64,000 bases of DNA from contig JAOUBJ010000006.1 in assembly GCA_029860345.1 (NCBI GenBank), positions 186,001-250,000 of the forward strand, in the 5' to 3' direction. The notes below the pieces were generated by a model. The model had not been told where the DNA came from and ran no database searches. It saw nothing but the letters and a program-made list of their open reading frames with translations. This document shows, piece by piece, positions 55,889-63,473 of the stretch. The stretch's first letter is position 1. Each line of letters opens with the position of its first letter. The DNA comes from Candidatus Zixiibacteriota bacterium. Lineage in GTDB: Bacteria; Zixibacteria; MSB-5A5; GN15; FEB-12. The translations under genes were made by a program, and so were the position numbers.

Positions 55889-55956
55889 GTCAGACTTTGA
55901 GTGCAACACAGACAGCCCCGCAAGGCTTGAGTTTATGGGAAGTAAACCGTATTGTG

Positions 55957-55978
55957 GTGTGTACAATTGATAACACAC
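55957..55978 (+). promoter_or_regulatory. Dyad before the leader ORF
   Basis: GTGTGT and ACACAC are separated by ten bases around CAATTG, immediately upstream of an AAAGGAGGAG ribosome-binding site. It may be an operator or a hairpin. Confidence 0.35.
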
Positions 55979-55993
55979 AGAAAGGAGGAGTCT

Positions 55994-56035
55994 ATGGCTG
56001 GACATCGTTTCGTGCTAAAAGAAGACAATCATTAA
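55994..56035 (+). CDS. Possible 13-residue leader peptide
   Basis: MAGHRFVLKEDNH follows AAAGGAGGAG, the best Shine-Dalgarno sequence in the area. Its stop overlaps an ATG of the next ORF in TAATG, and the likely start of the metallopeptidase gene (56050) has only GGGAGA. This could couple translation, but it may be coincidental. Confidence 0.3.
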   Translation: MAGHRFVLKEDNH

Positions 56036-56049
56036 TGGGAGAAACCGAA

Positions 56050-57099
56050 ATGAGTTATAGGAAAACATGTTCATCAGTGGCAATCTGGGTAGCCGTTGCG
56101 CTGATTGTCGGACTTAGTTCGTCCATCGCATGGGCATCCCAGCCCACTCCTGCAATTGCAGCGAGCTTGGACCCGAAGGTCAGAACAGTAGAAGCTGGAC
56201 CGCAGGAGTTGGTGCTGACCATTATCACCGCGTTTGATTGTGAGGAACTGAATCTCGATATTTCAATTGAGAAACTAACTCTAAATGGCCTGGCCAATCG
56301 AACTATAAGTGTTCGTGCCAATGAGAAGTCTGAAACTCTTCTGTACGTAGATATTCCTCGCGGTGATACCAGTATGGTAAGAGTAAATATAACGGGGTGC
56401 CGTGAGGGGACGGGCGCCATCCTCTCATTCGTTACGACCGGCGATAGTGTCGAATACCACCACGGTCCACCTATGCCAGACCGGCCTGCGAGGGGTAGAG
56501 GCACTGCGCGTCCATTCGATCAACCAACTGAGCTGCAACTCGACAGTAACCTTTACGAGTACATGCTTGACTTGCGCATCAAGATGATGCGCGATTTTGT
56601 CAAGAGCCTCCCGATTGAGTTGATTCCTACTGAACAGGAGAACATCTTCAAGGTCTGGATGACCCGGGATCAGTTTCGCAAACTGAAGAACGAAGGTGTC
56701 AAAGGGCGTATGATTGAGGGTCAAATGGTGGATACATTGCCCCCCCCCGTTGATCGTATCCGGCCTGATTCATCCACCAGGAAGCAGAAACCACGAGGGG
56801 CGCTGGGTTCGCCAACCGATCCTGCAAGCAGCGGTGATTTCAGTTTGGCCGGGATAGACGGGCTCAGTGGTGGGTTGTTGCAAGCCGAACAGTTGGTCAC
56901 GTTTTATCTGCACATCGACAATAGTACGAACTACGATGTCGACGGCGTGACAAACGGTTTCCGGTTCTATTCCCCCGACGGAGCGACATGGGCGGACACG
57001 GAGGGGGATACCTTAGGGACTTTGGATTGGGGGGCTGAATTCGACCTGCTATTTATTTCATTCCTTACAGTGTGTCGGGCTCGGGTGCTGATACTATAG
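56050..57099 (+). CDS. Secreted metallopeptidase-dockerin protein, 5' part (frame broken)
   Basis: ATG at 56050 has GGGAGA 7 nt upstream and gives a signal peptide (SVAIWVAVALIVGLSSSIAWA). The mature part contains two short beta-rich stretches, a helical linker and a domain with FYLHIDNSTNYDVDGVTNGFRFYSPDG. The reading frame then diverges: after about 57040 it runs into a stop at 57099, while a good continuation lies one frame back from about 57045. A run of nine C (56740-56748) encodes PPP. Together with 57072-58715 this is almost certainly one ancestral gene. Confidence 0.8.
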   Translation: MSYRKTCSSVAIWVAVALIVGLSSSIAWASQPTPAIAASLDPKVRTVEAGPQELVLTIITAFDCEELNLDISIEKLTLNGLANRTISVRANEKSETLLYVDIPRGDTSMVRVNITGCREGTGAILSFVTTGDSVEYHHGPPMPDRPARGRGTARPFDQPTELQLDSNLYEYMLDLRIKMMRDFVKSLPIELIPTEQENIFKVWMTRDQFRKLKNEGVKGRMIEGQMVDTLPPPVDRIRPDSSTRKQKPRGALGSPTDPASSGDFSLAGIDGLSGGLLQAEQLVTFYLHIDNSTNYDVDGVTNGFRFYSPDGATWADTEGDTLGTLDWGAEFDLLFISFLTVCRARVLIL

Positions 57100-58715
57100 G
57101 TTTCGCCGGTTCGAGGCTATTCGACTCCGGGCTTCCCTGGTGGTTCGACGATACCGCTTACTCCCTGACAATCGGACCTATTCCTTTGTCTTCTGTTGGC
57201 AAGACGATTTGTCTGGATTCCGCTTTCTTCCCTCCTTCGGGTGTCTGGGCCTGGTCGGTAGCGCAGGTTGGGACTTTCCATCCTTCCTGGGACGGACCGC
57301 ATTGTTACGAGGTCGGTGCCGATACTACCCTGTTGGTGAGTGGTCAATTGAGCTACCTGAACCCCCGGTATTCCCCTCCAAACGATGAATTTCCGATGAG
57401 AGATATTGAGGTTCAATTATGGGACAAGGATTGGGATTTTGATGATCTATTGGCGGTGACAACGACGAACGATGATGGTGACTTTTCATTCGATACAGTT
57501 TCTAACATCGACTATGGTGGTGCCTACGGCCAAGACATCTATCTCAAGATCTTCGCCCACAATGACGCCGGATTTGTGACGACCAACACCATATTGCTGA
57601 CAAAGTGGTACACAGTCAAAGAACCAGTTATTCAGGATGTAAGTAGTGGTACCTACGATTACGGCACTTTCGTGACGAACCTCGGCACCAGCGGAGCTTT
57701 TCACATTGTAGATCGATTATTGGACGGCTATCGTATGTGGCTCGACAGCACGTTTATTATTAGAGAGGACATCGGAGGTTGCCCTGTCTATCTGGACGAC
57801 AGTTGCGGCAGTTATTATACCAGTCCTCCGCTCACGGCAGATTACCTCGTGATCGACACTTCAGACTACTCTCTATTGAGAGCACCCGATACATATGATG
57901 ATCATGTCATCCTCCATGAGCACGGTCACTGGGTGGGAAGTCATTGCCTTGATGTCTTCGATGAGAGTTCCGGCGGGCCACATACATGGAGCGGAAAATA
58001 CTCACCGGCGCTTGCGGCTTCAGAAGGGTTTGCGCATTTCTGGTCGTCTGTTGTAAGGGGGGATGCTTCCGGTAAGAACTGGTGGCTGAATTTCGCCCTA
58101 TACCGGGAGACAAATGTTGAAAATGGTGAACATGGGTGGGATGGTACTTACAGTAACTCCGCCAACAATTACGGCGATAGTTGCGAAGCGGCGGTTGCCG
58201 GAATTCTCTGGGATATCTGTGATCCTGATAGCGACGACTACGATAGTTTTGGCGATTTCAGCTTCCCCCGTGGTCCGGCCGATGATATCGGGGACAGCCT
58301 GTCGGACGGGTTTCAGAGCATTCTGTCCGCGCTGCTCGATGATGACGTGCTTGGTCATCGCCCGGACAATATGGGTGAATTCTGGGATGTCTGGGTCGGT
58401 CCACCATCGTTGGGTAACAAGCAGAAGGTGGCTGACATATACTATGAACACGGCGATTCGACCCGGAGTTGTTGCTACGGTATTCGTGGCAACGTAGACG
58501 GCGATCTCTGGGATCAAATCGATATTAATGACCTCCTGTATCTTGTCGATTTCATGTTCACGGGCGGCCCGGAAGCGCCGTGCTGGGAGGAGGCTAACCT
58601 GAGGGCTGATGATTCAACCATAGATATCTCGGATCTCGTTTGGTTGGTCGACTATATGTTCACCGGTGGACCGGCGCCGCACTCGTGCTACGACAAGAAA
58701 CTCCAGACTGACTAA
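57072..58715 (+). CDS. Secreted metallopeptidase-dockerin protein, 3' part
   Basis: The 547-residue frame carries a candidate zinc metallopeptidase site, HEHGHW (HExxH, 57915-57932), after a beta-sandwich region, then a long domain with Asp/Gly-rich stretches. It ends with two dockerin-like repeats, VDGDLWDQIDINDLLYLVDF and DDSTIDISDLVWLVDYMFTGG. The third zinc ligand is not clear. It starts at GTG 57072 only formally, as the true start is in the upstream frame. The dockerin pair is very like that of the partial gene at the left edge. Confidence 0.82.
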   Translation: MSGSGADTIGFAGSRLFDSGLPWWFDDTAYSLTIGPIPLSSVGKTICLDSAFFPPSGVWAWSVAQVGTFHPSWDGPHCYEVGADTTLLVSGQLSYLNPRYSPPNDEFPMRDIEVQLWDKDWDFDDLLAVTTTNDDGDFSFDTVSNIDYGGAYGQDIYLKIFAHNDAGFVTTNTILLTKWYTVKEPVIQDVSSGTYDYGTFVTNLGTSGAFHIVDRLLDGYRMWLDSTFIIREDIGGCPVYLDDSCGSYYTSPPLTADYLVIDTSDYSLLRAPDTYDDHVILHEHGHWVGSHCLDVFDESSGGPHTWSGKYSPALAASEGFAHFWSSVVRGDASGKNWWLNFALYRETNVENGEHGWDGTYSNSANNYGDSCEAAVAGILWDICDPDSDDYDSFGDFSFPRGPADDIGDSLSDGFQSILSALLDDDVLGHRPDNMGEFWDVWVGPPSLGNKQKVADIYYEHGDSTRSCCYGIRGNVDGDLWDQIDINDLLYLVDFMFTGGPEAPCWEEANLRADDSTIDISDLVWLVDYMFTGGPAPHSCYDKKLQTD

Positions 58716-59397
58716 CAAAAGTAATTCTCGGGGCTGCGGGGCTCCATTCAAGACAACTTAAGGCCTGACCTAATTCCAAGTGGCGCATGCTACAAGTATG
58801 CCGCACGGCATCGGGTCCAGGCCCCCCGGCGAGCAGTCGCTCACAAAACCCGGTAAAATCGCTCAAAGCGGCCCATAATATCGCTTGACATCGGGGCAGC
58901 CGTCGCACTTATTGCAGCTAAGGGAACAGTCAATTCAACTTCGAATCCCGGTAGCAACCGGGAGAGCATCATGTCCTTTGAGCGTTTCGGGAACATACCT
59001 CCAGCCGGGGTGTCATGCACCTTGTGACTGGCTCTAGTGGTTCATAATCAAATCGACCTTTTAGGTCGATCGGCAGTTGCTCTGGTTATCCGGAAGGGAA
59101 CCATGCCGTTCAAGTCTTTGCCATCGTCGAACCGTCGAAATCACCTGCTTACGGGTTTCCTGTGTCCGGGTGCGTCTTCACATTTCCTGGCATTGGGCAA
59201 TGTGTACGAGACGCTCTGGCTGGTTTCGTTCGTGGCCCTCGTGCTCATAATTCGCAACGATTGGTTTGATTACCCCGACGGCCTGTCACCTCCTCCCGCC
59301 AACTGTGCTTGAATCTTCCGAGCAGGCGGTATAGTCGCCTGGCGAAGACCTTCTTTCATTGAAAAATGGAAGTCACTTAACAATTGGGAGTTTGAAA
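58716..59397 (+). other. Intergenic region with a possible small ORF
   Basis: This 682-base gap holds a TTGACA word at 58885 with a poor -10, a perfect stem ATCGACC/GGTCGAT at about 59049-59068, and a possible 69-residue ORF. No other gene is supported. Confidence 0.4.
59103..59312 (+). CDS. Small membrane protein, doubtful
   Basis: ATG at 59103 follows GGAAGGGAACC. The 69-residue product contains one hydrophobic segment (LWLVSFVALVLII) flanked by polar ends. There is no recognised family and codon usage is not convincing. Confidence 0.3.
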   Translation: MPFKSLPSSNRRNHLLTGFLCPGASSHFLALGNVYETLWLVSFVALVLIIRNDWFDYPDGLSPPPANCA

Positions 59398-60345
59398 GTG
59401 AAAAAACTACTTATAGTTTTTGTGGTGGTGGTACTGGCGACCGGTGGTGTCTTTGCACAGAATTTCCCGACGGACGGACCGACGGACGACGTTACAACCT
59501 CCTTAGGGATGTTTATCATCGAGATTAATCTGCAGTATCGCCACCTGTTCCTAAACAATCCGGCCTATGATCAGGCTACCGGGACGTTGACCAGCCCAGT
59601 TCTGTATGATCCGGCCACCGTTATCGGTCGCAGTGCGGTGCACCTTCACGATCCGAATCTTACCGGCGCTGATTACCTGGGTGTGCCCGTTGGAACAGCC
59701 CAAACAACTGTCGGTGACATAAACTTTACGGTTTGGCCCCCTGGCTTTCAGGGACCGCCCAACACGAGGGAACTCCACACCAAAGTGCACTCGATGAATA
59801 TGACCAGTGGCCGCTCAGCCGTCCGGGCAGGCCTGGCCGCCGAGGGTGCGATCCTGATGAGCCCGGGAGAAGTCGAATCTATGCCAGGAGGTAACGACTT
59901 CCCGGCTGAGAGCTTCTTTGACGTGTTCGTTGAAGTTGTTATCCCCGGGGCACCTGCTGATTCGTGGGGAGATCCGGACTCCATGATTGTGGGTAATGGT
60001 CTGGCCCTCATGGTGGAAGCCGATAGTCTACAGTCCCTGCCACCAAAAGTCGTGTATATTCATAGAAACTCCACTGCCGTCCCGGTCCAATTCCGAAACA
60101 GCCACCCAACATATTGGACGGAAGGACAGGTGCTCGGGTTCTTGATCCTGGCCGGTCACGGAGTCGGGTATGATGACGGTGGAGAGGATACACAGTCATT
60201 TATGAACACCATGGACACGGTAACGCCTATGCCTGTTCCACCGGTACCCACGACGACACCTTACGGCATCCTGATACTGCTGGCCCTGCTAATCCTTTCA
60301 GCCGTTTATGTGCTGTACAAAAAGAGAACGACGGCCAACGTGTAG
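59398..60345 (+). CDS. Secreted protein with IPTL-CTERM-like C-terminal anchor
   Basis: GTG at 59398 has GGGAG 7 nt upstream, trimming a 13-residue extension. The 315-residue product has a signal peptide predicted to be cut before Gln (GVFA/QNFP), a domain with no recognised family, and a C-terminal tail VPTTTPYGILILLALLILSA...YKKR. The tail has the form of IPTL-CTERM or PEP-CTERM sorting signals: a short motif, a hydrophobic helix, then basic residues. Gln at +1 fits cyclisation by the glutaminyl cyclase at 14839-15774. It ends at a good terminator. Confidence 0.72.
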   Translation: MKKLLIVFVVVVLATGGVFAQNFPTDGPTDDVTTSLGMFIIEINLQYRHLFLNNPAYDQATGTLTSPVLYDPATVIGRSAVHLHDPNLTGADYLGVPVGTAQTTVGDINFTVWPPGFQGPPNTRELHTKVHSMNMTSGRSAVRAGLAAEGAILMSPGEVESMPGGNDFPAESFFDVFVEVVIPGAPADSWGDPDSMIVGNGLALMVEADSLQSLPPKVVYIHRNSTAVPVQFRNSHPTYWTEGQVLGFLILAGHGVGYDDGGEDTQSFMNTMDTVTPMPVPPVPTTTPYGILILLALLILSAVYVLYKKRTTANV

Positions 60346-60406: not shown

Positions 60407-60490
60407 CAGGGCAACTGCCCACTCCCCTTTGTGTGCCTGCACAAGCTCCCACAACAAGAGGCTTGTTGATAAAGGCCCAATCCGCGGGTG

Positions 60491-60558
60491 GTGTTGGGCG
60501 ACCCAGCCCGACACCTACCGACCAACCCACAGGCTGTCAGGCGAGTCACCTGACAGCA
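60491..60558. repeat. Dispersed repeats between convergent genes
   Basis: GTGTTGGGCGACCCAGCCCG (60491-60510) matches 63346-63365 with one change. A second hairpin, GCTGTCAGGCGAGTCACCTGACAGC (60533-60558), matches the family at 55863 and 63308. Confidence 0.65.
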
Positions 60559-60573
60559 CCGGCAGAATGCAGT

Positions 60574-61215
60574 TTAGGGCTTGAGTTCCCAATTCGGAAG
60601 CGCGATAGGTGTCGTAAGTTGGCCCGGATGCAAAGTGAAGACAGTGGTGACTTCTATAACTTCAGCCAGCTTGAGAAACAGCGCCCGGGGACGAGGTATC
60701 TCGAAGTCATCCAAGCGAATCTCAAACTCGGCGCGCACGCGAAAGCTGCCCGGCTGGCCGGACTCTGCAAGTGGAGCAATTGAAAGTCGAGCCTCAATTG
60801 CACGTTTTACCCCGTGGATATAAAACAGCCCGACGGCTTCAGCGTGGTAACTGGAATCCACAGCGAACACTTGGGGCATCCCCTCCAGTGAGGTAAGTTC
60901 AAAATAGCAGTGGGGAAACTCATCGGTGTGCAGATGGTTTTGACGCATGTGCTCATCGCGCTTGTCAATCCCGGTCTTAAGCGTCCGCAAGTCGACAGAG
61001 AGCACAGCCGTGGCCGCGGATTGCGGTTGGTTGGGATCAAAGATAAACTGTCCGACAATCGCCTGCGTCTCACCATCAAGAAACTCAAGGCGGGCCGAAG
61101 ATTCTATGTGAACGGTGTCGCTGCCCGATAGCGGATCCAGCCGGTATTCCGTCGCTGATGCGACCGGGGCCGCCAGCAGAGCCAGTGTCAATGCTGCAAT
61201 GGTAAGTCGTGACAT
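60574..61215 (-). CDS. YceI family periplasmic protein
   Basis: YceI proteins are lipocalin-like barrels that bind isoprenoid quinones or related lipids. ATG at 61215 has GAGG 6 nt upstream, dropping 8 residues from the longest ORF. The product begins with a signal peptide cut near ASA/TE, then shows the YceI fold (HIESSARLEFLDGETQAIVGQ, LSVDLRTLKTGIDKRDEHMR, FELTSLEG, LTIHGVKR-like FYIHGVKRAIEAR). It is last of three co-oriented genes with heme-binding partners, so an electron-carrier role is inferred. Confidence 0.9.
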   Translation of the reverse strand: MSRLTIAALTLALLAAPVASATEYRLDPLSGSDTVHIESSARLEFLDGETQAIVGQFIFDPNQPQSAATAVLSVDLRTLKTGIDKRDEHMRQNHLHTDEFPHCYFELTSLEGMPQVFAVDSSYHAEAVGLFYIHGVKRAIEARLSIAPLAESGQPGSFRVRAEFEIRLDDFEIPRPRALFLKLAEVIEVTTVFTLHPGQLTTPIALPNWELKP

Positions 61216-61222
61216 TCGGGCC

Positions 61223-61963
61223 TCAATTGTCCTGTGCATCCTGATCGATCCAATCGCCGATCAATTGAATGTCGGCCGGCGACAAATAGGGACCGTTTCG
61301 CGGCATGCGATCACCAAACGGCGGCGGATCGAGGAGTTTGCGATAGAGATTGCTGGCATCGGCATTGCGCTTGGTCAGCAGAGCACCGTGATCAGCCGAT
61401 CCATTGACGATGCTGTTGTAGTTGGCGTCGGCATTGTTTCGGCTCAGAGTGAAACCACCACTGGAGGTGCCATGGCAACCGCTGGCGGCGCACCAGGTTT
61501 GGATCAAGGGGTTGACATCGGTCGAAAACCTGACACCGTCGTCATCGTAGATGGTCGCCGTCCCGGTAGCATCACCTATCTGACCATTGACCGCTGCGCT
61601 GATAGTCAGGCCAAAGCTCTCAGCAAACTCAACCGCAGCGTTGTTGATAGTGGCAACTGAGACGGCGGTACTCAGGGTACCTGCTGGAATTGTGTCCTTG
61701 CCGTTGGTGACGGCGTAGTCGGATGTCCCGGTGGCGTCGCCGTCGGACGTTGCGTAATCGAAGATAACATCCTGACTTGAGGTAGCATCGATAGAGACGG
61801 TGAACACGACTGTTTGGCCTTCAAGAACCTTGAAGTCACTGACCGACAGCGATGGACCTGTTCCACCACCACCTCCCCCGGTTGGTGAGTCGCCGGAGTC
61901 GGAGCAACCGAGCAAAACTGCCGTGGTCAATAGTATCGTTGCAACGAGGATTCGCTTGTACAT
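61223..61963 (-). CDS. Lipoprotein with Calx-beta domain and cytochrome c-like domain
   Basis: The 246-residue product has a lipobox ending LLGC (Cys20), a Gly-rich linker and a Calx-beta domain (LSVSDFKVLEGQTVVFTVSI to DDDG, residues about 38-143). The C-terminal domain resembles planctomycete-type cytochromes: heme motif C-A-A-S-G-C-H (Cys158, Cys163, His164), a CxxxxCH variant, and a possible axial Met in FGDRM (Met220). It is probably an envelope electron carrier. The YceI gene starts inside its end region, and the heme-barrel gene lies 29 bases upstream. Confidence 0.82.
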   Translation of the reverse strand: MYKRILVATILLTTAVLLGCSDSGDSPTGGGGGGTGPSLSVSDFKVLEGQTVVFTVSIDATSSQDVIFDYATSDGDATGTSDYAVTNGKDTIPAGTLSTAVSVATINNAAVEFAESFGLTISAAVNGQIGDATGTATIYDDDGVRFSTDVNPLIQTWCAASGCHGTSSGGFTLSRNNADANYNSIVNGSADHGALLTKRNADASNLYRKLLDPPPFGDRMPRNGPYLSPADIQLIGDWIDQDAQDN

Positions 61964-61992
61964 GAGGCATCTCCTTTGTTTCAGTATCGCAT

Positions 61993-63027
61993 TCAGTATC
62001 CAAAGTGAACCTGCAAAAACAGGTCGTCCTCATCCTGTCTGATGCCTCTCGTATAGTAGGTATATGATGGCCTGAGTTGCACGAACGGTAGCGGATACAA
62101 CTCAATTGATACTCGCATGAATTCATCCACACCGGACTTGAGCGAACGGTCGCCGTCGAAGAAATTATATTCTGCTATCAGATACAGCCCGTATTCGAGT
62201 CGTGTGGTCAGGTTGGCGTATGTAATTAGTGTATCGTTGGCTTTGCCGGCCAGATCGAGTTCTCCCATCAATGTAAAACGGTCGTATGAGATACCGCCAA
62301 ACAGAGCCCGACTGATTGGGAAACGCCCGGTGCTGCCGCCGGATTCTTCCGGCAGCCGCAAAGAGGCGCCGACAAGATATCCAACCGGGCCGTAGCCGGA
62401 AGCGCGATAAAGATGCGCGCCGTAGATGCCACGTCCGCTTTCATCCATAGCTTCGGCGACGAAATTGATGCCTTTCACCAGGGCGCCAACGGAAAGACCA
62501 TCGAGATAGACATTGGAACCATGCCCCGTGCGCTCCTGCACAAACGCTTTGTGGTCGGAACTGTGCAAACCATAAGCCGGGTAGAATCGTCCTGCCTTGA
62601 TGTAGAATCGATCATCGGCCTGCCGCCACAAGGCATAGTTTTCACTGATCCCCGCTTCACCGAACCGCAACTGATATGAAAACCGTTCAATCGGTTCGGC
62701 GTTGACAAAGGCGTCGGTCTGCATCCGAAACACACGACCGTCATCAAAGATCAGGTGGCGCGAGTCCAGTCCGATTGTCACCGCTTCGGAGAGCCGTGGT
62801 GAACGGTACTTGTCGGCGAGTTTTCTCTTGGTCGAAGGCAAACACAGTTCGTTGAATCCTACCGCGTGGTTGCCGTACTCGTTGCGCATACCGCCACCGT
62901 TGGGGTTGATATGACAATTGCCACAAGCGGCTCCTTGTTCAACAGCCAGTCGGGGAAATGATGTGGCCGATGAGATTATCAGGGCGGCAATGATCAGAAC
63001 GACAGTGGCAAGCGGCAGAATCCTCAT
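61993..63027 (-). CDS. Outer-membrane beta-barrel with N-terminal heme c motif
   Basis: The 344-residue product has a signal peptide, then AACGNCHINPNGGGMRNEYG with a CxxCH site (Cys35, Cys38, His39), followed by about 290 residues of alternating beta-strands with barrel character ending in an aromatic residue (LFLQVHFGY). The motif CHxNPxGGGxRNxYG is shared by other monoheme-barrel proteins. A heme at the mouth or periplasmic side of a barrel suggests electron passage across the outer membrane, as in porin-cytochrome complexes, but this is an inference. GGAG lies 9 nt before the ATG. It is first of the three-gene unit. Confidence 0.82.
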   Translation of the reverse strand: MRILPLATVVLIIAALIISSATSFPRLAVEQGAACGNCHINPNGGGMRNEYGNHAVGFNELCLPSTKRKLADKYRSPRLSEAVTIGLDSRHLIFDDGRVFRMQTDAFVNAEPIERFSYQLRFGEAGISENYALWRQADDRFYIKAGRFYPAYGLHSSDHKAFVQERTGHGSNVYLDGLSVGALVKGINFVAEAMDESGRGIYGAHLYRASGYGPVGYLVGASLRLPEESGGSTGRFPISRALFGGISYDRFTLMGELDLAGKANDTLITYANLTTRLEYGLYLIAEYNFFDGDRSLKSGVDEFMRVSIELYPLPFVQLRPSYTYYTRGIRQDEDDLFLQVHFGY

Positions 63028-63473
63028 CTACAACTCCGTTATATCATTTGTGTCTTCGTGAGTATCAGCATAACGAATACAAGAGGGATTAGTTCCGGCA
63101 TTCGTACATCTCTTTCCATTAACGGTGACGTTCGACTCGGAAGGCCGGCGGGCGGAAACCTCCAAGCGGTTCCGCCAGAGCGCAGTAGTAGGGAAAGATC
63201 CCTGTGCTCTTGGCTTCCTTGGCGGCATCCCTCCTACGGCGGACCTTCTGCGCAGGGATGCCGCCCTACAAAACTTGTGTCCGCGTGATCTTCAGATCGC
63301 GCGGAAGGCTGTCAGGCGAGTCGCCTTACAGCACGTTCGGATGTGGTGTTGGGCGACCCCGCCCGACACCGACCGTTCGGACGAAAGAACCAGAAGCGCT
63401 ACCGCCCCGCGTGTCTACCTGCCGACAGAGGTGGTTCGAAGACGGACCCACCCTACTCTGCTACAAAACACGG
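63028..63473. other. Intergenic region with dispersed repeats
   Basis: This 446-base gap holds hairpin repeats: a GGCGGCATCCC/GGGATGCCGCC pair with a CCCTAC tail (about 63222-63275), the palindrome GCTGTCAGGCGAGTCGCCTT (63308-63327), the GTGTTGGGCGACC repeat (63346-63370) and a hairpin at 63431-63460. No gene is supported. Confidence 0.6.

Follow-up and report, generated by a model that had tools for sequence, protein, structure and literature searches.

The window analysed here, a 64,000-nucleotide stretch of a Candidatus Zixiibacteriota bacterium genome, carries on its minus strand (63027–60574) three ORFs arranged head to tail, which encode a predicted cytochrome-porin barrel, a lipoprotein with a putative cytochrome c domain, and a YceI-family protein. 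By analogy with Cyc2, a fused monoheme cytochrome-porin Fe(II) oxidase with 16 strands and CXXCH at the N-terminus (PMC8406198), we lean towards reading this cassette as a single-electron exchange module at the outer membrane. At the sequence level, the barrel family is homologous to Cyc2 and forms a sister family, which is not Cyc2 by the published definition. The barrel part of the cassette would thus look like an undescribed sister of a known Cyc2 kind rather than a stand-alone novelty.

Organization of the Cassette

The first gene of the cassette (nt. 61993–63027, minus strand, 344 aa) encodes a signal peptide, a CGNCH-containing plug, and a predicted 16-strand barrel. It is followed by the lipoprotein gene (nt. 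61223–61963, minus strand, 246 aa; lipobox, Calx-beta spacer, and a putative C-terminal monoheme cytochrome c domain) and by a gene for a YceI-family periplasmic lipocalin-like protein (nt. 60574–61239, minus strand). While the YceI ORF as listed overlaps the lipoprotein ORF by 17 nt, we noted a second ATG at nt. 61215, preceded by GAGG and at the beginning of a normal signal peptide. With this likely start, the lipoprotein–YceI gap becomes ~7 bp, next to 29 bp between the barrel and lipoprotein genes, in agreement with the co-orientation and close spacing described in an earlier note on this DNA. Shine-Dalgarno-like sequences precede all three starts, a glycosyltransferase gene lies upstream on the same strand at a distance of about 446 bp, and the downstream neighbor is a convergent gene. 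Judging from this layout, the three genes are likely carried on one transcript. A promoter scan, uninformative for the Zixibacteria phylum, returned no sigma-70-like site, and a search against Rfam gave no match.

The Barrel Protein

The barrel protein displays FPRLAVEQGAACGNCHINPNGGGMRNEYG directly after the signal peptide, is strand-rich past the plug, and ends in QVHFGY. Nothing convincing was found for it in Pfam, NCBIfam, or PHROGs, and the best PDB match by sequence for the family profile was a weak one to Porin O (E 0.18). An AlphaFold2 model built on an alignment of eight relatives contains exactly 16 beta strands across residues 83–343 (nt. 61999–62781, minus strand) at moderate confidence (pLDDT 63, pTM 0.65). 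For the plug, which falls within residues 14–79, the pLDDT is <50, leaving its position unplaced by the model. Most strands show the in/out hydrophobic alternation expected for a transmembrane barrel, and Foldseek matched the model to 16-strand porins in the PDB, including OmpU (E 6.8e-11) and OmpF (E of about 5e-9). Structure prediction, proposed earlier as the check on the barrel, has therefore returned one. The fusion of heme site and barrel in a single polypeptide is likewise borne out by an ORF that contains both CGNCH and the modeled porin fold. A conduit of the MtrAB type was rejected for this protein, given the single CxxCH and the 16 strands. In MtrAB, PioAB, and MtoAB, electron transfer is also proposed to occur through an outer-membrane barrel, but one of 26 strands around a separate decaheme cytochrome, so that the distinction from multi-heme MtrABC systems drawn in the earlier note stands.

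The predicted heme-binding site, CGNCH (residues 35–39; nt. 62911–62925, minus strand), is CxxCH in 73/73 aligned relatives (one sequence, L025, is counted twice in this alignment) and lies in an N-terminal plug with the signature P-R-[LF]-[AS]-x6-C-x2-C-H-x2-P-x-G-G-x2-R (nt. 62848–62958, minus strand). Besides CxxCH, the residues P25, P42, G44, G86, D88, R90, G146, and G153 are invariant across the alignment, and the site suggests that heme c would be attached there. Within the plug itself, neither a Met nor a second His is fully conserved. Two histidines of the barrel part are nearly invariant. H159 (nt. 62551–62553, minus strand; 69/73) appears to lie in the loop after strand 5, at the position of constriction loop L3 in general porins, this loop assignment being an indirect one. 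H341, three residues before the C-terminus (nt. 62005–62007, minus strand; 70/73), falls in the register of the last strand that faces the lumen, close to where the plug should sit at the periplasmic end of the barrel, which makes it a candidate distal ligand of the plug heme. A counterpart of H341 is absent from all 18 Cyc2-type proteins compared.

The Lipoprotein Cytochrome

The next gene had been called a lipoprotein cytochrome, and we came to the same assignment. The lipobox is LLGC, and residues 41–141 (nt. 61541–61843, minus strand) form a Calx-beta spacer (Pfam PF03160, E 4e-8), a clear domain in the structure model by Foldseek (CBD1). The spacer is dispensable, as it has been lost or swapped for other Ig-like spacers in relatives, and some orthologues are only 135–145 aa long. 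The C-terminal domain contains CAASGCH (C-x4-C-H; nt. 61472–61492, minus strand), RMP (with the distal MP), and WI, and an orthologue alignment shows the Cys, Cys-His, Met-Pro, and Trp-Ile positions to be conserved. Since CxnCH, a distal Met, and a C-terminal WI helix are the features of class I cytochromes c, we have assigned this domain, by its sequence, as a class-I-like cytochrome c with a putative His/Met heme. The small cytochromes c of the PSCyt1 and Cytochrome_CBB3 types likewise have CxnCH, the distal MP, and a C-terminal WI..GA helix; the window protein differs in being part of a spacer-containing lipoprotein of the outer-membrane type, in its variable CxnCH spacing, and in scoring below the Pfam cut-off (17 bits to Cytochrome_CBB3, against 27 bits), while one distant orthologue does pass PSCyt1. 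No cytochrome was present among the 50 Foldseek matches listed for the lipoprotein model.

The C-x4-C-H spacing, previously described as unusual, is not exotic in this family, as the orthologues use x2, x4, x5, and x6. Most have x4, and x2 is seen, for example, in L027, L034, L070, L079, L080, and L083; these ordinary CxxCH members support heme binding by the family as a whole. C-x4-C-H has also long been known from the Desulfovibrio cytochromes c3. We did note two unusual spacings, namely C-x6-C-H at the heme-site position of one orthologue (L019:1174-1578, the same gene as in L029) and C-x5-C-H in the second lipoprotein copy of L028.

The YceI Protein

The third ORF matches PF04264 (E 8e-16; 59.1 bits against a curated cut-off of 23.7), as expected from its earlier naming as a YceI gene, and its profile matches the E. 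coli YceI structure 1y0g (E 6e-10). The genomes hold 0–3 YceI genes each, from which we estimate the chance of a YceI gene beside the barrel at <~1% per locus. In a phylogenetic tree, the cassette YceIs cluster as a single group, separately from the other YceI proteins that these genomes encode (1 change, compared to a shuffled mean of 16), and the branch dividing them has a support of 84/29 and was recovered in 83% of bootstrap trees. The window genome also encodes a second, divergent YceI (L002, G000:C4:251335-251709), whose very long branch adjoins the cassette group.

Several YceI proteins are known to carry isoprenoids such as ubiquinone-8 (PMC9113575) and, by analogy with the family, the cassette YceI may plausibly bind an isoprenoid or quinone as well. 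In Burkholderia, the YceI lipocalin BcnA is paired with a cytochrome b561 (LcoA) in protection against lipid peroxidation (PMC9113575). The cassette resembles this pair in the genetic linkage of a YceI lipocalin to a heme protein, but both of its heme proteins are of the c type and have a predicted outer-membrane location; the cassette contains no cytochrome b561 gene, its other two genes being those of the porin and the c-type cytochrome lipoprotein. With this precedent, a quinone-shuttle and an antioxidant role of the YceI protein are both plausible. Among the papers listed for a limited open-access library, none combined 'cytochrome-porin' and 'YceI'.

Distribution and Gene Linkage

Barrel homologues were detected in 35/132 genomes of the phylum of the window (Zixibacteria) and, in one Bacteroidota class (that of L025, a Bacteroidetes record), in 220/294 genomes at E<=0.001. 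Scoring a CxnCH lipoprotein gene within two genes downstream and on the same strand, in loci with room downstream, we observed linkage to the barrel in 32/33 loci of the phylum. The YceI gene is less constant and adjoins the barrel in 16/16 loci from the family of the window (on contigs long enough), in 2/3 loci of family f5, in 0/3 of f3, and in 3/10 of the more distant loci of the phylum, where the order or strand is changed. The earlier expectation that relatives keep the genes together therefore held for the barrel–lipoprotein pair, and for all three genes within the window's family, whereas YceI is not universal. Given this patchy presence, we regard YceI as an accessory rather than part of a universal core.

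In most relatives of family f1, the cassette is flanked by purH on one side and, on the other, by a conserved small gene and then coaBC. This site is empty in two relatives (G035 and G022), and in another (G015) the lipoprotein gene alone is left. In the window genome, purH has other neighbors and the intact cassette is found on another contig; the purH surroundings of one genus mate are also rearranged, and the barrel is absent from all six genus mates searched. In f3, f5, and more distant families, the barrel–lipoprotein pair occurs in other contexts. The genes are thus kept, lost, and moved together, which argues for a joint function. An origin of the linkage by slow genome rearrangement only is weakened by the cassette located away from purH, by the rearrangement around purH in the genus mate, and by the pair in other contexts.

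We also inspected 41 Bacteroidota neighborhoods (L025 included). A CxxCH or Cx4CH lipoprotein-like gene was present downstream of the barrel in 6/41 loci, and a YceI gene beside it in 0/41. Some loci have a small CSNCH-type protein upstream of the barrel instead, and in Bacteroidota the barrel may have other partners. Just upstream of the barrel in L180 and similar loci, we noted a ~220-aa secreted protein with the sequence 'IPNG..FSCSNCHxxPxGGGxRNxFG', a second monoheme-type protein that carries the plug signature without a barrel.

Relationship to Cyc2

The earlier note overlooked a precedent, as Cyc2 is directly comparable to the barrel protein. In a profile–profile comparison, the barrel family matched the Cyc2-type proteins of the same phylum with 98.3% probability over 281 columns (0.1–3% for reversed controls). 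With the plug removed, the pooled profiles (all members or distant members) still matched all Cyc2-type proteins at 80–92%, whereas near-member profiles, and matches to most single Cyc2-type groups, were weak; much of the signal must accordingly come from the plug. Cyc2 and Cyc572 have in common with the window barrel a single polypeptide with a signal peptide, an N-terminal CxxCH plug, and a 16-strand porin, and the spacing of 15 residues from P to CxxCH is the same in the barrel family and in the Cyc2-type proteins of its phylum. As beside the window barrel, a periplasmic cytochrome gene adjoins that of Cyc2. In Acidithiobacillus, the gene order is cyc2-cyc1-cup (PMC10654088), which resembles the order of cytochrome-porin and cytochrome c seen here, joined in L085 by a gene for a plastocyanin-type copper protein (PF00127, E 7e-9). 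L083 has a gene of the Fe-S respiratory type immediately upstream.

Cyc2 is defined by one motif on each side of CXXCH, AXPXFAR[Q/K][T/Y] upstream and PXL downstream, and by a length of >=365 aa (PMC8406198). The window barrel instead has SFPRLAVEQGAAC upstream of CxxCH, lacking FAR[Q/K][T/Y], and P-x-G-G after it in place of PxL; at 344 aa it is also under the cut-off. With both defining motifs absent and the length too short, plain membership in Cyc2 was rejected. The family is distinguished from Cyc2 by P-x-[FL]-[AS]...CxxCH-x2-P-x-G-G-x2-R plus the C-terminal His, and, unlike Cyc2, the window barrel is partnered by an outer-membrane-type lipoprotein, often with a YceI gene. With a nucleotide pattern representing the Cyc2 motif core (PXFARKY...CXXCH fused cytochrome-porins, L118-L137), we identified Cyc2-type genes in 38 of the 132 genomes of the phylum, where the motif occurs in other proteins (one match for the reversed-pattern control); the window genome has no match to this pattern. 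Eighteen full-length proteins of 389–458 aa made up the Cyc2-type comparison set, and in a tree the barrel family and the Cyc2-type proteins are split by a 100/100 branch. By analogy, the barrel family probably works like Cyc2.

Proposed Function and Alternatives

The fold class, the site conservation, the gene linkage, the distant homology to Cyc2, and the maturation and oxidase genes of the window genome are computed results, from which we infer heme attachment, protein location, the direction of electron flow, the substrate, the role of YceI, and an electron route across the outer membrane. In our preferred reading, the barrel would be a 16-strand porin of the outer membrane, its periplasmic mouth plugged by the short N-terminal segment with one heme c. 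A redox partner that is small and dissolved, Fe(II) being one possibility, would enter the pore and exchange an electron with the plug heme, entry being necessary because a single heme cannot reach across the membrane. The proximal ligand of this heme would be H39, with H341 in the final strand as the candidate distal one. The electron would pass to or from the His/Met heme of the outer-membrane-tethered lipoprotein cytochrome, and from there by way of soluble periplasmic carriers to a heme-copper oxidase, as from Cyc2 to Cyc1. YceI would play an accessory part, with an isoprenoid (plausibly a quinone) as its ligand, and would either be coupled to the redox chain or be served by it. The window genome contains genes for cytochrome c assembly proteins and a heme-copper oxidase, indicating that c-type maturation and a downstream sink exist. 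A bolder version, unlikely as a whole, would have a large unannotated sister family of Cyc2, common in Zixibacteria and one Bacteroidota class, in which the barrel-wall His (−3) extends into the lumen and ligates the plug heme, making the porin part of the redox center, and which in the lineage of the window is wired via the monoheme lipoprotein to a dedicated YceI group ferrying quinone across the periplasm.

A YceI-centered explanation, which we consider unlikely, is that of an envelope antioxidant, where the isoprenoid or quinone of YceI quenches lipid peroxyl radicals of the outer membrane and the two heme proteins recycle or drain the electrons, as proposed for BcnA and LcoA. The Burkholderia linkage of a YceI lipocalin to a heme protein, the ubiquinone-8 bound by some YceIs (PMC9113575), and the separate grouping of the cassette YceIs are all in line with this; but the heme partner here is c-type rather than b561, and YceI is missing beside the barrel in f3, in one f5 locus, in most distant members, and in all Bacteroidota loci examined, so that this cannot be the core function. 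The same architecture is reversible in principle and could instead export electrons to an outside acceptor (an oxidized metal, a humic substance, or a shuttle). Although members of the phylum have been predicted to be iron reducers via other genes (PMC9769843, PMC7005843), the characterized fused monoheme cytochrome-porins are oxidases (PMC8406198) and the window genome contains a heme-copper oxidase, leaving export decidedly unlikely.

We give still less credence to a heme-gated or heme-sensing porin, in which the plug heme would bind a gas or small molecule and control uptake with no net electron conduit. The porin fold, the invariant D88 and R90, the conserved L3-like loop with D158-H159, and the many Bacteroidota members that stand alone would suit such a role, yet a second cytochrome adjoins the barrel near-universally in the phylum of the window. 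That the CxxCH of the barrel is a disulfide or metal site anchoring the plug, with no heme at all, is in line with a plug in which neither a Met nor a second His is fully conserved, but is highly improbable given the invariance of Cys-x-x-Cys-His, His included, in 73/73 members, the adjoining cytochrome gene, and the distant homology to Cyc2, a protein with proven heme.

Cyc2 serves as a marker of microbial iron oxidation, and the published recipe of motif and length would miss the window barrel. If the family has true Cyc2-like chemistry, single-electron exchange at the outer membrane would be far more widespread than annotated, as the count in the Bacteroidota class (220/294 genomes) implies; if it does something else, a fused cytochrome-porin alone would be no evidence of iron oxidation. 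Either outcome matters for the reading of metagenomes, and the tight link to one YceI group offers a concrete handle on what YceI proteins do.

Sequences Flanking the Cassette

A palindromic repeat, GTTGGGCGACCCnGCCCGACAC, occurs on both sides of the cassette (nt. 60488–60520 and 63343–63375), with a second repeat, AGGCTGTCAGGCGAGTC, beside each copy (nt. 60531–60559 and 63306–63334). Allowing <=1 mismatch, we counted 105 occurrences of the palindrome across the genome, as against 0 for its reversed pattern; it is a dispersed REP-like family, which is perhaps involved in the movement of the cassette. Elsewhere in the window, two overlapping ORFs of 400 and 547 aa (nt. 55897–58715, plus strand) resemble one secreted protein split by a frameshift, and the C-terminal end of the 547-aa ORF consists of two dockerin-like repeats (DINDLLYLVDFMFTGGP and DISDLVWLVDYMFTGGP). 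Finally, a secreted 328-aa protein without a Pfam match (nt. 59359–60345, plus strand) has a sorting-signal-like C-terminal tail, TPYGILILLALLILSAVYVLYKKR, and resembles exosortase targets.
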